From Candidatus Latescibacterota bacterium (GTDB lineage Bacteria > JAAXHH01 > JABIQT01), in contig JABIQT010000460.1 of the NCBI GenBank assembly GCA_018667995.1, positions 1 to 7,253 on the forward strand: 7,253 nt of DNA. The letters run 5' to 3'. The translations under genes and the position numbers were made by a program. Shown piece by piece: positions 2-7,253 of this stretch. How positions within the stretch are numbered: position 1 is the first letter of the stretch; each line of letters opens with the position of its first letter. Under the pieces are notes generated by a model that worked only from the letters and a program-made list of their open reading frames with translations, ran no database searches and was not told the origin of the DNA.

Positions 2-2563
2 GGGCAGAACGTCCTTCGCGGCTTAAAAAAGTCGTCCCTGTTGATGGCGCCGATCCTTGTCGTGGTCTTGTGGCCATTGTTTCATGTCGGTGCTGAGACG
101 TTCCTCGGAGCTGTCAACCCAGATTACTACGCATCCCTCATCGACAACAATTTCCTTCGCGACAACCCAATCACCGCTCGTAGTAGCGTTTACGACAGCT
201 ACTATCCCGTCAAGAGTCTCGAGGGCAGACTTCCCATATCGGCCCGTTTTGGCAGCACGGTTTACCCGATCCTCCTCGAGGCCCTGTTCGGGATCGATCC
301 ACGTACGGCGATGACAATTTCCATCGCAATGTTTCTTAGTTGCCTGCCCCTTTCCGTCTTCTTCATGTCTCGCGTGGTTACCAACTTTACCGAGCGCGCA
401 GCATGGTTCGCCGCCATCCTAGCAAGCATCAGCGGCTGCATCGCAATGAGCTACGTCTACTACTACGTAGGGCAGAATTCAGGTATCGGATGCCTGCCGG
501 TCGTGATCGGTGCCCTCTATCTGTTGGTGATCCGACCCAGTTTCCGACTGACCGTGCTTGCAGCCCTGCTGGTGAGTTCGTTCTTCACCATGTACATGGG
601 CATGCTCGCCTACGCGCTGGCGCCGATCGGCGTCTTGGGACTCTACATGTTGATCTGGCGCGAGATGAGTCTCAAACGAGGCGCGGCACTGGTCTTCGGC
701 TTTATCGCAGCGCTCGTCGTCGTCAATCTAGGCATGTTGACCCATGTTGCTCGTGGCTTCGCCGGTTGGCGTGACCTCGTAGGCCTCTCACTGCAAGGAC
801 AGTTTTTCCTCGATTTTTTAACCGAGCAATACGTCCCCATTTTCATCGGTCTCGCCAACTATCCGTTACCTACGTCATATCTCAGCCAATGGCTGGGGTT
901 GACGATGGTACCGATCCTGACGGGACTATCCATTGGGTTATTCGGAGTGATGATTTATTTCACAAGCCGATGGGCCCAGGAACTGGATGATCGCAAGACC
1001 GTGGTGATGATGGTTGGGGGGGTGTTCATCTATGGCGTCGTGTGGTTTATCTACACCTACTTCCGCCAATACGGATACGCTGTGTTCAAGATGAGTTCGT
1101 GGATGCAATTCGTTCAAGTTCTTCCCTGGGCATATGGCTTGGACTGGTTACTCCGCAGGCAGTCCACCCAGTCGGGAAGATCCCGGATCGCCACACGATC
1201 AATCCTGGGTGTTCTCACGATCGTCATCGTAGGCGGAAATCTATTAGCGAGCCATCGACTCACGTCCTTCAGCCTCGGGCGTACCACCGAAATCGGTTAC
1301 ATCGTCAATCACTACGAGGTCTCCGGTAATCGCGACTACTTCGACCTCGCCGAGGCGATGGAGGGTATCGTCAAGGACGATGAGAGCATAGGTCTTGGCT
1401 TCACGGACGTCATCCAGAACTCCTGGGTGTACTACTATTTGCGTGACTTCCGCGTTTCCGTTCTTGCTCACTATGTCTTTCCAAGCGACGACGAGAATCT
1501 CCCCGACATCAAGACCCGTCTCGTCACTGACTACTATGGGAATGTCGGGCCCGACTACAATCAGTTCTTCCACGGTGCCACGGACGACTACTTTCTGACG
1601 CAGACAGCTGATAATCTCAACACAGAGATCGTCGACCAGGAGTTACCAGCACCCATCTGGCGCAACCAGACATTCCAGCTATTGCGCACAGACGAAGCTA
1701 GTGCGTTTGCCATGACCGGACGAGGCTGGTACCGGATCGAGTATCGAGGCGCCGCCCGGTCGGGGGTGGTGAGAGACTACTGGTGGCCGAAGAGCTATCG
1801 CTGGACAGGTGAGGGTGGCGAGCTATACATGTTCGGTGCCGATCCATCAGTTGCACGACGGCTGGCCTTTACCGGCATTGTCGGATTCGGACTGGATTCG
1901 TCCAGTCGGACGGTCCAGCTGTGGCTGAACGGCGAAGTGTTCGACGAGGTAACCATCGACGAAGCAGCGCGGGTTGTCTCCAAGCCATTTTATCCGACAG
2001 GCGACGCTGATCGTATCGTGATTAAGGTCATCGAGACCGTTCAACCACCGCCTCGTCAGTTCCGTTTGTGGAATCGTGATATCCCAGGCGACTACCGGCG
2101 TCTCAACATGGCTGTCTCCAATGTCACCGTGATGGAAGCGGGGCGAGAGCAGAAGAGGCCGATGGAGGTCTATGACGGGCACTCGCTCTTCAGTCACGCC
2201 CACTCGTTCAACGGACTTAAGCTGAATCAATGGGTCGGAAAGGGTGTTTCCCTGACTCTACCAATTGCGGCTGACCCCTCCTCCGTCGACCTGCTTCTTT
2301 TCGTCCCAGGGCATCCGGCCTTGAAGTTTCCCTACAAGCTGAAGATCTCCCTCAATGGAATCGAGCATGAGGCTGTCGCAGAATTCCCTGGAGATCTCGC
2401 CCTGTCGATACCTGTAACGAAGCGATCTGGGAGCAACACCCTTGATCTCGCCATCACGCCGGAACAGACGTTCGTCCCCGACGACGTAGATCATGACTAT
2501 AGACCCACAGTCCAGAGCTTTCGCCTGATGAGAGTCGCTTTGAAGTCAGGAGCAGGCGCGTGA
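2..2563 (+). CDS. GT-C-like membrane glycosyltransferase with two C-terminal beta-rich domains (5' end outside window)
   Basis: The frame is open to the left window edge. The first possible starts are TTG at 41 and ATG at 44; neither has a ribosome binding site, and a Lys-Lys pair typical of a membrane-segment flank lies before them, so the true start is probably upstream. Counting residue 1 at base 41, about 10-11 hydrophobic segments lie near 3-23, 90-110, 119-139, 148-164, 170-206, 214-234, 285-308, 320-341, 348-370 and 386-404. The loop after the first segment carries NPDYY (Asp28), placed like the acidic residue of the first external loop in GT-C enzymes. Residues 405-840 are soluble and probably periplasmic, with two beta-rich modules at about 560-700 and 722-835. 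Each ends in a D-x-R-like motif (GDYRRL at 683-688; FVPDD...DYR at 811-821). Known of the family: GT-C proteins transfer sugars from polyprenyl-phosphate donors. The specific substrate cannot be told, and a flippase- or polymerase-like role is an alternative. The stop overlaps the next gene by four bases, suggesting coupled translation. Confidence 0.8.
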   Translation, partial: GQNVLRGLKKSSLLMAPILVVVLWPLFHVGAETFLGAVNPDYYASLIDNNFLRDNPITARSSVYDSYYPVKSLEGRLPISARFGSTVYPILLEALFGIDPRTAMTISIAMFLSCLPLSVFFMSRVVTNFTERAAWFAAILASISGCIAMSYVYYYVGQNSGIGCLPVVIGALYLLVIRPSFRLTVLAALLVSSFFTMYMGMLAYALAPIGVLGLYMLIWREMSLKRGAALVFGFIAALVVVNLGMLTHVARGFAGWRDLVGLSLQGQFFLDFLTEQYVPIFIGLANYPLPTSYLSQWLGLTMVPILTGLSIGLFGVMIYFTSRWAQELDDRKTVVMMVGGVFIYGVVWFIYTYFRQYGYAVFKMSSWMQFVQVLPWAYGLDWLLRRQSTQSGRSRIATRSILGVLTIVIVGGNLLASHRLTSFSLGRTTEIGYIVNHYEVSGNRDYFDLAEAMEGIVKDDESIGLGFTDVIQNSWVYYYLRDFRVSVLAHYVFPSDDENLPDIKTRLVTDYYGNVGPDYNQFFHGATDDYFLTQTADNLNTEIVDQELPAPIWRNQTFQLLRTDEASAFAMTGRGWYRIEYRGAARSGVVRDYWWPKSYRWTGEGGELYMFGADPSVARRLAFTGIVGFGLDSSSRTVQLWLNGEVFDEVTIDEAARVVSKPFYPTGDADRIVIKVIETVQPPPRQFRLWNRDIPGDYRRLNMAVSNVTVMEAGREQKRPMEVYDGHSLFSHAHSFNGLKLNQWVGKGVSLTLPIAADPSSVDLLLFVPGHPALKFPYKLKISLNGIEHEAVAEFPGDLALSIPVTKRSGSNTLDLAITPEQTFVPDDVDHDYRPTVQSFRLMRVALKSGAGA
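2548..2552 (+). promoter_or_regulatory. Ribosome binding site deciding the GTG start at 2560
   Basis: AGGAG lies seven bases before GTG at 2560, inside the end of the upstream gene. It supports GTG as the start and, with the GTGA stop/start overlap, translational coupling to the membrane protein gene. Confidence 0.7.
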
Positions 2564-3129
2564 GGGCAGCCTATTCCATCGTCTTCGTCGTGACAGGGGC
2601 GTGGCTGCTCGGTTGTGATGGTTCCAACTACGAGCAGGCAACATGCGGCAAGACCTACTTTCCGAGGCCGTGGAATGTTTTGTCCTCAGGTAGTCTGGAT
2701 CAACTGGAGTATTACACGCTAAAGACTGGCAAGAGACCGGGTGATCCGAGCTACGACATCTGGGCCGACAAGAAATTCGAGTTCGATACATCCCTTGCAT
2801 ACAGATACGAACAGGAGGGGACGAGCAACGAATTCTGCCTCCGATCGGTCACGCTCAATGTTCGACATCCTGTGGATACTGTGGGGATGATGAAAGCGCG
2901 CGACTTCCTTGGTCATTTTGAGGGACATCTACAGGCTCGCGTCGACACGATTCGGGCCGCTCTCGACGCTCAATCTGAAGCCATGCGCCCATTTGAGGCA
3001 GTCACTCAGCCGGCCGGCAGGCTGGTGGCTGAAGTAAGGGGCATCCACACGCCCAACCGTGGAGACTTCGTTTCACTCGTATTCTACGATGTGGTCTACC
3101 ATCAATCCCTGACAGAGGCCACCCAGTAA
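2560..3129 (+). CDS. Small lipoprotein of unknown family, paralogue of the next gene
   Basis: This 189-residue protein begins at GTG with a good ribosome binding site and overlaps the preceding stop codon (GTGA). It has a short signal peptide (Arg2, hydrophobic 5-17) and lipobox LLGC, so Cys19 should be lipidated after signal peptidase II cleavage. Residue +2 is Asp20, which in enterobacteria retains lipoproteins in the inner membrane; whether the rule holds here is unknown. Cys29 and Cys93 are matched in the neighbouring paralogue and could form a disulfide. Shared features are KTG at 55-57, P-S-Y-D-I-W at 63-68, YRYE at 81-84 and a Cys followed by R.V.L..R. The N-terminal two thirds look beta-rich, and an amphipathic helix follows near 105-145. 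I recognise no family and assign no function. The position between a GT-C protein and an SGNH enzyme suggests a role in glycan assembly or export at the envelope. Confidence 0.82.
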   Translation: MRAAYSIVFVVTGAWLLGCDGSNYEQATCGKTYFPRPWNVLSSGSLDQLEYYTLKTGKRPGDPSYDIWADKKFEFDTSLAYRYEQEGTSNEFCLRSVTLNVRHPVDTVGMMKARDFLGHFEGHLQARVDTIRAALDAQSEAMRPFEAVTQPAGRLVAEVRGIHTPNRGDFVSLVFYDVVYHQSLTEATQ

Positions 3130-3143
3130 AGGCGGCTGCCTTC

Positions 3144-3147
3144 AAGG
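3144..3147 (+). promoter_or_regulatory. Ribosome binding site favouring ATG 3154 over TTG 3148
   Basis: AAGG sits six bases before ATG at 3154. The in-frame TTG at 3148 directly abuts AAGG, with no spacer, and is therefore a poor start. Confidence 0.5.
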
Positions 3148-3153
3148 TTGAGC

Positions 3154-3684
3154 ATGAACCGAGCAAGAAGCTTCGGATTCACTTTCGCCCTACTCGTGTT
3201 GCCCTTCGGCTGCTCAAGCAGCCGGTTCAACGAATCAGAGTGCTCACAGGGGCTGATCCCATCACCAGCCCAGTTCCAAGCATTCGAGTCGCTGCGCGAA
3301 TTCTCGTTCTCTGGCCAGAAAACAGGTAGGGGAGTTCAACAGCCAGACTATGAGATCTGGTCGACGAGTGGATCTGGAGACAGGACGCGAATCTACTACA
3401 GATACGAGAAAAGCGAGGTGTGCCCCCGAATGGTCGCCATGCGCCTTCGGTATACGCTCTCAAACGAAGACATTCAGAAGGCGATTGACTTCGTGGCCTT
3501 ACTCGAAACTACCTCGAATGGTCGTCTGCCAGACGCCCGGGATGCGATTCGTCATTTTGCACAGAAGCGAGACTACTACAAGCCTCGTGTTATGATTCTC
3601 CCTGATGCGAGAATTGAGGTTGTGGTAACCCACAATGCAGTTTACGGCGACCTACTGGAGGTCGCCGCCCATATCGACCACTGA
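3154..3684 (+). CDS. Second small lipoprotein of the same unknown family
   Basis: This 176-residue protein starts at ATG 3154, chosen because AAGG lies six bases upstream; an in-frame TTG at 3148 would add two residues. The signal peptide (Asn2-Arg3-Ala-Arg5, hydrophobic 7-18) ends in the lipobox-like LPFGC, making Cys20 the lipidated residue. Residue +2 is Ser21, which in enterobacteria allows Lol transport to the outer membrane, unlike Asp in the upstream paralogue. Cys30 is exactly ten residues after the lipid Cys, as Cys29 is in the paralogue, and Cys90 matches Cys93. Other aligned features are KTG at 56-58, P-D-Y-E-I-W at 64-69, YRYE at 82-85, and A-x-D-F-V at 110-114 against A-R-D-F-L. 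The DNA has diverged well beyond a recent duplication. It lies 24 bases after the first lipoprotein, so very probably in the same transcript. The function is unknown. Confidence 0.82.
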   Translation: MNRARSFGFTFALLVLPFGCSSSRFNESECSQGLIPSPAQFQAFESLREFSFSGQKTGRGVQQPDYEIWSTSGSGDRTRIYYRYEKSEVCPRMVAMRLRYTLSNEDIQKAIDFVALLETTSNGRLPDARDAIRHFAQKRDYYKPRVMILPDARIEVVVTHNAVYGDLLEVAAHIDH

Positions 3685-3805: not shown

Positions 3806-5329
3806 ATGCCTGAAGCGAACAACGGAAAGAGCAGAAGGATCCTGCTCGTCACCATCGCGTCCATCCTGACCGTCATTGTCACGGCGATGCTCGCAGAGCT
3901 TCTCGGCTACGTCCTGTACCAGCAGTTCAGGGCCTATCACGTGCCCGTGAAAGCGTTTCTGAATCGGGGTGAACCCTCGATTCCGAATACTATCTCACAC
4001 GCCCTTTGGGGGCACGCGCCCAATCCCGAATACGAGCATCACGGGCTCAACGAGCAGGGCACCCGGGGGCCTGGGTTCGACCCTGTGAAGAAGGAAATTG
4101 GTGAGTTCCGCATCATCGTCTCAGGAGACTCCGCAACGGAGGGCACCGGCGTTAACTGGGACATGACCTACGCCTACCACCTGGAGAGATTTCTCCAGGA
4201 GATGGCACCCGATCGGAAGATCACGGTCATCAACGCCGGTGTCGCCGGCCACAAGACCACCAACATTCTGGCCTACATCGCCCATCGCTTAGTGCATTTG
4301 CAGCCGGATGTGATCGTTGTCAAGGCGGCATACAACGACTACGTGTTCTTTGCTCGTTCTGATCTGTCCGCGTCCTATACCACACCCGTGAAACCCATGC
4401 AGTCAAAACCCACGATGATCGATTACCCTGGACCGTCCCCTTTCTGGACCGTGTCGTATCTGGGGAAGTCCTATGTGGCCTATCTGTACTATCAAAAACA
4501 ACGGGAGCACGAGATCCGTCAATTACAGGCCCCCGCCGGTCGTTCAACGACGGATATCTGGTCGACTGTTGAGGGAAATCTCAACCTAACACATATCTAC
4601 CGGCGACAGATTCTCGGCATCCTAGGAATCATACGTGCCAATGGAGTACGCCCGTTGCTTCTCGACCTGCCTCTTGCCGAAGATTTGGCTGGCTGGCCCG
4701 AAGAGTTCAGACACCTCGTTGGACAGTTCAACGTCGAGTTAGCGCACGCCGCCAAACAGACGGATACTGCACTGATTCGCAGCGAAGAGTTCCTCGATGG
4801 CTACATGGACTTCCTTGACCACTGTCACACGACCTCGCAAGGGAATCAGCGAATCGCTGCGGCCCTCGCGAACCACCTGAGCGAGGATCTCGGTCTCAGC
4901 AATCGTGTGAGTGAAGTGCCGCTGAGCGAAATCTCTCTTCCCGACGCCGAGGAGGCTTTCAAAGCGGGCCACTTTACCGCCGAGGAAACGCTGCTGCGCG
5001 TCAGGCCCGACATCCGAGCGGCCTTCGCTCAAATGACCGGCCCGGGCTCGTTCACTGTCGAGTTCGCGAAGCCTCTGAACCATGGATTGCTGAATCTGGC
5101 TTTCGAACTCAACGAGCGCATGCCGGAGACATTGGCGGCATTCCGGGAGGGCGAAGCAGAACCATTCTACGAATTCGTCAGTGAGTCAACTACAGTCGGT
5201 AGTGTGCACATACCGATCAGGGAGCCGACCCAGACCATCCGATTGGAGATGACTCCTCGATCTGGGACATCGCCTGCGGTGATCCGGATCATGCGCCTGA
5301 ACGCATGGGAAATTGTCGAGAAACTCTGA
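3806..5329 (+). CDS. Membrane-anchored SGNH/GDSL-type hydrolase or O-acyltransferase
   Basis: This 507-residue protein starts at ATG with GAGG five bases upstream. A basic N-terminus (Lys8, Arg10, Arg11) and one hydrophobic segment at about 12-37 should anchor it with the rest outside the cytoplasm. The SGNH blocks are in order: GDS with nucleophile Ser109 (strand RIIVSGDSATEGTGV, 102-116), Gly148 in NAGVAGHKT, Asn177 in AAYND, and Asp338/His341 in DHCH followed by GN..IA. The entrance L-N-x-x-G-T-R-G at 81-88 is typical of SGNH proteins in exopolysaccharide and capsule loci. Family members remove or transfer acyl, usually acetyl, groups on glycans; which direction applies cannot be read here. 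Residues about 375-507 form an extra beta-rich C-terminal domain, perhaps a glycan-binding or interaction module. It lies 121 bases after the second lipoprotein on the same strand, so co-transcription is likely but not proven. All catalytic residues are present, so it should be active. Confidence 0.88.
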   Translation: MPEANNGKSRRILLVTIASILTVIVTAMLAELLGYVLYQQFRAYHVPVKAFLNRGEPSIPNTISHALWGHAPNPEYEHHGLNEQGTRGPGFDPVKKEIGEFRIIVSGDSATEGTGVNWDMTYAYHLERFLQEMAPDRKITVINAGVAGHKTTNILAYIAHRLVHLQPDVIVVKAAYNDYVFFARSDLSASYTTPVKPMQSKPTMIDYPGPSPFWTVSYLGKSYVAYLYYQKQREHEIRQLQAPAGRSTTDIWSTVEGNLNLTHIYRRQILGILGIIRANGVRPLLLDLPLAEDLAGWPEEFRHLVGQFNVELAHAAKQTDTALIRSEEFLDGYMDFLDHCHTTSQGNQRIAAALANHLSEDLGLSNRVSEVPLSEISLPDAEEAFKAGHFTAEETLLRVRPDIRAAFAQMTGPGSFTVEFAKPLNHGLLNLAFELNERMPETLAAFREGEAEPFYEFVSESTTVGSVHIPIREPTQTIRLEMTPRSGTSPAVIRIMRLNAWEIVEKL

Positions 5330-5415: not shown

Positions 5416-6138
5416 CTAATCTGCCTCGGGCTTGGTGGCAATGAAGACGAGGAACCTGCCAGGGTAGAACCAACCCGGGATCTTAATGGTTCCGGGAAAA
5501 CTCCCGCCCAATGGATCAAAGCTGTTCCTGATTTCCAGTTCATGGACCATGACACTTTCCGGACGACAAAGCAGGCATCGGGCAAGCTTTTCTAGTATCA
5601 CTGTCTGGCTAAACTGATAGATCATCGACACGCCGAATGTTGCCAAAATCAGCTTCGTGACTGGGAAGAGGAGGCTCTGCAACGTAAACATGAGACGGTT
5701 GAAGACAGGCTCTCCAATGATCAGTTTGCCGCCTCGCACAAGTTTCCGGTTACTGGCGCTGATTACGTCTTCTAGTGTCTGAAGGCTCTCTCTGACATTA
5801 CTGCCGTTGATATGGTGGAGCGAGAAATTGAAAACGATCGCATCTACCGATTCATCGGCAATGCCGTCCATGGATCTAGCGTCGGTGACAATTTTTTCAA
5901 CTCGATCATCTTGAATCTGAGCAAGCATCGATTCTGCTATGTCTAGACAAGTCGTCTTTTTAGTCAGGCCCGGGTCAAAGACGAACACGCCTCCATTGCC
6001 GACATCTGCAACTCGTTTGCCCGTTACAATCGGGTTTAAGAGCTGGCGAGTCTGCACATAGAGTGTTTCCCACGACTTTGCCGTCTCATGGTACTTGCCC
6101 GCGATCGCGTTAAAGTGGCTCTTCTCGTTGTCTCCCAA
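5416..6138 (-). CDS. Class I SAM-dependent methyltransferase, probably for a sugar or glycan precursor
   Basis: This 240-residue protein begins at TTG (6138), supported by AGGAG five bases upstream and an in-frame stop at 6160-6162; no ATG or GTG lies between. The opening H-F-N-A-I-A-G-K-Y-H (8-17) is the usual lead-in of class I methyltransferases. SAM-binding motif I is V-A-D-V-G-N-G-G at 43-50. The acidic residue after strand 2 is Asp66 (CLDIAESML), motif II Asp is Asp86, the D-A-I-V-F-N-F-S-L-H-H-I stretch is 99-110, and the R-G-G-K-L-I-I-G-E-P strand is 135-144. Residues about 149-172 are unusually hydrophobic for a cytosolic methyltransferase, so membrane association or a lipid-linked substrate is possible. 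The gene looks less GC-rich than its neighbours and has several A/T runs, which could reflect separate acquisition. It is convergent with the SGNH gene and downstream of the second GT-C gene. The substrate is unknown; glycan or sugar-nucleotide methylation is inferred from context. Confidence 0.85.
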   Translation of the reverse strand: MGDNEKSHFNAIAGKYHETAKSWETLYVQTRQLLNPIVTGKRVADVGNGGVFVFDPGLTKKTTCLDIAESMLAQIQDDRVEKIVTDARSMDGIADESVDAIVFNFSLHHINGSNVRESLQTLEDVISASNRKLVRGGKLIIGEPVFNRLMFTLQSLLFPVTKLILATFGVSMIYQFSQTVILEKLARCLLCRPESVMVHELEIRNSFDPLGGSFPGTIKIPGWFYPGRFLVFIATKPEAD

Positions 6139-6330: not shown

Positions 6331-7253
6331 CTACTGAGTTCGTCTCACCTGCCCGCCACTTACAAGCTCAGGCAGTGCCGTGAGATCCATGTCATCAACA
6401 GCGACAAGGCGAATGCTGAGTTGTCGGGTGTCCAAAGATCCCTCGGATAGATCGGAAGGGATGAAGAACTCGCTGGCCTCGACATGAACAGTATGGACGC
6501 ATTCACCGGTCTTTTCCAAACCCGGGAGCAAAACATCAGACCGACCCGGTTCCAGTATCGAAACTTCGGCAATTGCAGTTCCATCGTCCAGGCGAAACGT
6601 GAGGTCAAGGGGATAGAGCGCCTTCGGTCCCAAGGAGTGAAACTCGAGAAGATGCTCGGTGCCATCAGAGTCAGGGAAGCCGATCCACATCTGCCTTCCG
6701 AACCAAAGATCGTCGCTCAGTCCACCGATGATCGTGGCCTCCTTGCCACAATCGTTTGCTTTGGAGCCTGCTTGCAACATGCCAACGACGTCTTCAACAG
6801 GTACGACGGGGTCGAAGGACGGAGAATCAATCGCCAGCAGGACGTGTCTTCCGTCGTTGTAAATGATAGGACTGGACGCAACCAATTCCAGAGCGACTTT
6901 TCTGAAAGAGCGCTTCGTGCGACGGGAGGCGAGCACCCATGGGTGAGTCATTCGGGTGTACTCATTCTCAATCTGGGTGTCAGCCAGATTGTAGCTGTAG
7001 GCAAAATGAGTAACACCTTGATTCCGAAGATAGGCCCTCACTGAATCGACGCCGCCTCCTACGGGAACCGGACTATGTGGCCCGCATAATCCCGGATTGT
7101 GAGTCGTATAGACTGTCTCATCCGTGTAGTTCAAGGCGAATGGCATATCAATAGCCGCCAAGAGAACACTCCCTGATGGGATCTGGGCCTGCATCTTCCT
7201 GATCGGCCCACCAACTGACTCGAAGGTATCATCTCCATGCAGGTAACCGGACA
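6331..7253 (-). CDS. C-terminal part of a second GT-C-like membrane glycosyltransferase (5' end outside window)
   Basis: The minus-strand frame is open from the TAG stop (6333-6331) to the right window edge. The first Met codon at 7194 is internal: the residues before it continue sensibly (S-G-Y-L-H-G-D-D-T-F-E-S) with no stop. Counting from Met 7194, I-P-S-G-S-V-L-L-A-A-I-D-M-P-F-A at 5-20, the G-x-V-D-S-V-R-A-Y-L-R-N-Q-G-V-T-H-F-A-Y stretch at 48-66, and the R-H-V-L-L-A-I at 116-122 form the soluble region that follows the membrane part in many polysaccharide-locus GT-C proteins. Residues 156-271 are a beta-rich module opening with GGLSDDLWFG and closing with FFIPSD..EGSLDTRQLS. The transmembrane catalytic part would lie beyond the window, so the GT-C assignment rests on the tail alone. 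The tail module resembles that of the plus-strand protein at the left edge, supporting a shared pathway. The methyltransferase follows on the same strand. Confidence 0.75.
   Translation of the reverse strand, partial: SGYLHGDDTFESVGGPIRKMQAQIPSGSVLLAAIDMPFALNYTDETVYTTHNPGLCGPHSPVPVGGGVDSVRAYLRNQGVTHFAYSYNLADTQIENEYTRMTHPWVLASRRTKRSFRKVALELVASSPIIYNDGRHVLLAIDSPSFDPVVPVEDVVGMLQAGSKANDCGKEATIIGGLSDDLWFGRQMWIGFPDSDGTEHLLEFHSLGPKALYPLDLTFRLDDGTAIAEVSILEPGRSDVLLPGLEKTGECVHTVHVEASEFFIPSDLSEGSLDTRQLSIRLVAVDDMDLTALPELVSGGQVRRTQ

Follow-up and report, generated by a model that had tools for sequence, protein, structure and literature searches.

The window analyzed here is one entire 7253-base contig of a fragmented draft genome (6.06 Mb in 1165 contigs, 85% complete). 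Its + strand carries a polytopic membrane protein recognized by hydropathy, with a 5' end cut by the contig (positions 2-2563); P0001, a lipoprotein of 189 aa (3129 being its last position and 2560 its first); P0002, a lipoprotein-like protein of 178 aa when counted from a TTG (3148-3684); and an SGNH/GDSL hydrolase-type protein with an N-terminal membrane anchor, identified by a Pfam match and by its residues (3806-5329). The - strand has a methyltransferase (5416-6138) and the end of another protein (6331-7251). P0001 was assigned from its open reading frame, translation, lipobox, and paralogy with P0002, and P0002 from its open reading frame, translation, and homology to P0001.

The start codon of P0001 (2560-3129) is a GTG that overlaps the stop codon of the upstream membrane-protein gene as GTGA, and the co-directional P0002 gene is spaced 18 bp from that of P0001. 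On the strength of this overlap and this spacing, the two are most likely translated jointly with the membrane protein. The start of P0002 is more likely the ATG at 3154, which has AAGG ahead of it, than the TTG at 3148. A 121-bp gap precedes the SGNH gene, which may for that reason form a separate unit. Third-position G+C is elevated in P0001 and P0002, as it is in their neighbors, and so both look coding. As for operon ends, no + strand terminator or promoter rose above chance in the window, and an Rfam search of the window gave no match; a 16S rRNA gene was looked for in the draft genome and was not found.

Judged from their sequences, P0001 and P0002 are tandem duplicates of one ancestral gene, with homology far above chance. 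They align by BLASTP at E=3e-16 with 26% identity over 159 columns (26 to 27% according to the alignment), and the mature proteins reach a local score of 127, whereas 5000 shuffled pairs averaged 28.6 and went no higher than 72. The half beyond the third cysteine, taken alone, scores 44, a value equaled or bettered by 20 of the 5000 shuffles. Identity of the DNA over aligned codons is 41%, falling to 29% at third positions, a level at which synonymous sites are saturated and which makes the duplication either old or fast-evolving. The sequence-only reading from which this analysis started had described a real, old duplicated pair with little DNA similarity, and these values bear it out on both points.

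The two proteins share a skeleton of cysteines and short motifs, all encoded on the + strand. A second cysteine lies exactly ten residues past the lipid-type cysteine: in P0001, Cys29 (2644-2646) follows Cys19 (2614-2616, from the translation and the lipobox pattern), and in P0002, Cys32 (3241-3243) follows Cys22 (3211-3213, from the translation). A third cysteine stands ahead of R.V in each, as Cys93 of P0001 (2836-2838) and Cys92 of P0002 (3421-3423). A pattern search for KTG-x5-P-x-Y-[DE]-I-W gave exactly two matches in the window and none in 200 shuffles; the matches are KTG-x5-P-x-Y-D-I-W of P0001 (2722-2763) and KTG-x5-P-x-Y-E-I-W of P0002 (3319-3360). The corresponding in-frame DNA pattern is AARACNGG-N16-CCNNNNTAYGANATHTGG. 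Twelve residues past the IW comes YRYE, at residues 81-84 of P0001 (2800-2811) and 84-87 of P0002 (3397-3408). Every motif of the skeleton first noticed from sequence alone was found again, in register. The conserved cysteines probably pair as a disulfide, Cys29-Cys93 in P0001 and Cys32-Cys92 in P0002.

Both proteins begin with a signal peptide, and both had been called lipoproteins. We used a PROSITE-type lipobox, [LIVMFWSTAG]2-[LIVMFYSTAGCQ]-[AGS]-C behind an uncharged stretch. P0001 matches it with FVVTGAWLLGC (lipobox LLGC), and here the call stands; P0002, with LPFGC and therefore Pro at -3, fails the strict pattern, yet it keeps the position of the cysteine, Gly at -1, and a CSSS linker, and so we term it lipoprotein-like. 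The residue at +2 after the lipid-type cysteine is Asp in P0001 (2614-2622) and Ser in P0002 (3211-3219). In E. coli, Asp at +2 is a retention signal, one that is less common outside the enterobacteria (PMC6469965). The draft genome encodes LolA, which makes outer-membrane sorting possible, and by the E. coli rule it is possible that P0001 sits in the inner membrane and P0002 in the outer.

Hydropathy gives the upstream membrane protein (2-2563) about 10 to 11 hydrophobic segments followed by an extracytoplasmic domain of about 430 aa. Its layout, with a large first outer loop at 33-101 and a C-terminal soluble region from about 420, agrees with a GT-C topology test. Searches of Pfam, NCBIfam, and PDB gave no match for it, GT-C profiles and solved GT-C enzymes included, and no relative appeared in 384 sampled genomes. 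The GT-C neighbor proposed at the outset thus fits by topology but not by membership in a recognized family. The C-terminal outer domain of this + strand protein is weakly similar to that of the - strand protein at 6331-7251 (E=0.004, 25% over 113 columns), and the similarity ends in F-[VI]-P-x-D; the two may represent one kind of beta domain shared by a pair of envelope glycosyltransferases.

The downstream protein (3806-5329) matches Pfam Lipase_GDSL_2 at E=4.9e-8, with 34.1 bits compared to a cut-off of 32.9. It has the GDS serine (S109), the pair D338-x-x-H341, and a single anchor segment at 9-38, and the blocks GDS, NAGVAG, AAYND, and DHCH follow in canonical order (NAGVAG and AAYND having been read from the sequence). 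An SGNH enzyme does adjoin the pair, as had been claimed. SGNH homologues are present in every genome of the phylum looked at, but at just 24 to 37% identity, so they do not serve as a marker of this cluster. Another contig of the draft genome, read by eye over positions 1-8383, encodes a pair of ABC-2-type polysaccharide exporter proteins together with glycosyltransferases, a sulfotransferase-like protein, and one more SGNH-like protein; it is a separate glycan cluster without the P0001/P0002 lipoproteins.

By the searches for relatives made here, the pair forms an orphan family with members in a single genome. P0001 has no Pfam, NCBIfam, or PHROGs match at E<=1, the best match of P0002 in these collections has E 0.24, far below the cut-off, and PDB sequences searched with P0001, P0002, and their profile gave no match, in keeping with the initial view that the family is unrecognized. 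The two-sequence profile found only the P0001 and P0002 genes in their own draft genome, no member in any of the 15 other genomes that the collection has of this phylum (16 in all), and none in four sets of genomes sampled outside it (384, 301, 346, and 349), which overlap heavily and amount to about 700 distinct genomes, or <1/100 of the species in the collection; in searches of this kind an empty answer without a positive control shows little. Three profile hits at E of about 0.001 to 0.003 were dismissed as chance, being short or stop-interrupted. Scanning viral and genome collections for exact P0001 peptides found none, nor did the P0001/P0002 alignment among viral contigs, and the six viral hits to a relaxed form of the motif DNA pattern were all unrelated. 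Nothing convincing came from tblastn with an E limit of 10, used for P0001 and P0002 in phages and for P0002 in plasmids, or from P0001 in plasmids with a limit of 0.1. Further members may well exist in collections beyond those searched. The idea of a conserved system, to be recognized by recurrence of the family beside GT-C and SGNH genes, is as yet without support, since the roughly 700 genomes searched with the profile yielded no second genome with the family; with no relatives of the pair or of the GT-C-like neighbor in the sampled genomes, the neighborhood cannot be called conserved.

Structures were predicted with AlphaFold from alignments of two sequences only, each protein serving as the other's alignment, and the models are of modest confidence (pLDDT 64.4 and pTM 0.67 for P0001; pLDDT 70.8 and pTM 0.69 for P0002). 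Comparison of the models, which had been suggested as a check, gave the same order of elements in both: a helix, three to four strands, two helices, and two to three strands. The models agree with homology but, given the shared alignment, are not independent of it. Convergence of two unrelated small lipoproteins on a common likeness might be argued from an identity of just 26 to 27% and from the few sequences there are to build on; against a shuffle maximum of 72, however, the pair scores 127, the Cys, KTG, YxIW, and YRYE elements are spaced identically, and the genes are adjacent, and we regard such convergence as hardly credible. Against PDB, neither Foldseek (at E<=0.001) nor VIA-align (at Z>=5) gave a match, the best Z being 4.7 to 4.9. 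In predicted viral structures, the matches of P0002 are a pair of phage proteins without clear function (E 5e-5 and 3e-4) and, at E 8e-3, a phage "lipoprotein", with TM 0.33 to 0.50 and 8 to 18% identity in these comparisons. The P0001 model, an alpha-beta3-alpha2-beta2-alpha arrangement, has chance-level matches to MOG1 (1eq6), PsbP-like 9gnw chain P, MTC28 (4pws), and Apa (5zxa), which we take to share one common fold. This theme appears at Z 3.0 to 3.3 and for the P0001 model only (pLDDT 64). Together with the element order of P0001, it raises the thought that the pair belong, in diverged form, to the Mog1p/PsbP-like superfamily, as the lipoprotein DcrB does, and act as adaptors of membrane complexes. 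DcrB is a Mog1p/PsbP protein anchored in the membrane (PMC7716261). Every such match nevertheless falls within the chance range, the theme is absent from the best 50 matches of the better P0002 model, and there is no Pfam match, so that we consider this assignment unlikely.

What the pair does is read from its position, in one 7.25-kb contig of one draft genome, and from precedents, and on these grounds we propose tentatively, at somewhat less than even odds, that P0001 and P0002 serve a glycan operon as accessory lipoproteins in the periplasm. The operon itself, as first proposed, retains one confirmed SGNH protein, but its GT-C member is called by topology only. A small, secreted, membrane-anchored protein would have been duplicated in tandem long ago, keeping its signal peptide, lipid-type cysteine, short linker, single compact alpha/beta domain, and probable disulfide. 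The two products would be non-catalytic, a view for which we count the lack of any enzyme family match, and would secure or steer an envelope glycan, or else attach to the membrane enzyme; the GT-C-like protein could thereby extend the glycan, and the anchored SGNH protein could add or remove acyl groups. Any interaction and any function of the operon are what we infer beyond the homology, the motifs, the signal peptides, and the SGNH neighbor described above. About as likely is a role unrelated to glycans, in which a lineage-specific lipoprotein family, for instance one that binds small ligands or answers envelope stress, merely lies between envelope genes. That neither the family nor the GT-C-like neighbor has a relative in the sampled genomes speaks for such a role, and so does the most recurrent weak resemblance of both models, which is to UTRA/chorismate-lyase-like ligand-binding domains (Z 3 to 4.7, rmsd of about 6.4 to 8.5 A, at chance level); yet the way the P0001 start overlaps the upstream stop suggests co-translation, and a Z below 5 with an rmsd of about 7 A is what chance would give. 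An extension of the accessory role, in which duplication gave rise to an inner-/outer-membrane couple that meets across the periplasm and hands glycan surfaceward from the GT-C-like enzyme and the SGNH modifier, strikes us as a long shot.

With this pair, a phylum represented by few genomes gains an orphan family of duplicated envelope lipoproteins, whose conserved motifs are precise enough to serve as search queries. Should a glycan role hold, the family would be a new accessory component in assembling or modifying a polymer; taken by itself, it is a further lipoprotein family specific to one lineage. Of the systems already known, DcrB and its fellow Mog1p/PsbP-like lipoproteins also have a lipid anchor followed by a small alpha/beta domain, with a roughly similar order of helices and strands, but they have no detectable sequence similarity to P0001 and P0002 and a structural match at chance level. 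AlgF acts in alginate O-acetylation alongside the SGNH proteins AlgJ and AlgX (PMC9487903), and by analogy only it is, like the proposed P0001 and P0002, a helper adjoining an anchored SGNH protein; its system differs in having no tandem lipoprotein pair, P0001 and P0002 gave no profile match, and, unlike alginate O-acetylation, the window has no MBOAT acyl carrier gene. Mycobacterial LpqW channels an intermediate to lipomannan, whereas PimE directs the same intermediate elsewhere (PMC3229680). Here too P0001 and P0002 gave no profile match, and their own partner is called GT-C from topology only, while that of LpqW is the mannosyltransferase PimE; as an analogy only, LpqW offers what we propose for P0001 and P0002, an envelope lipoprotein thought to work with a membrane glycosyltransferase.
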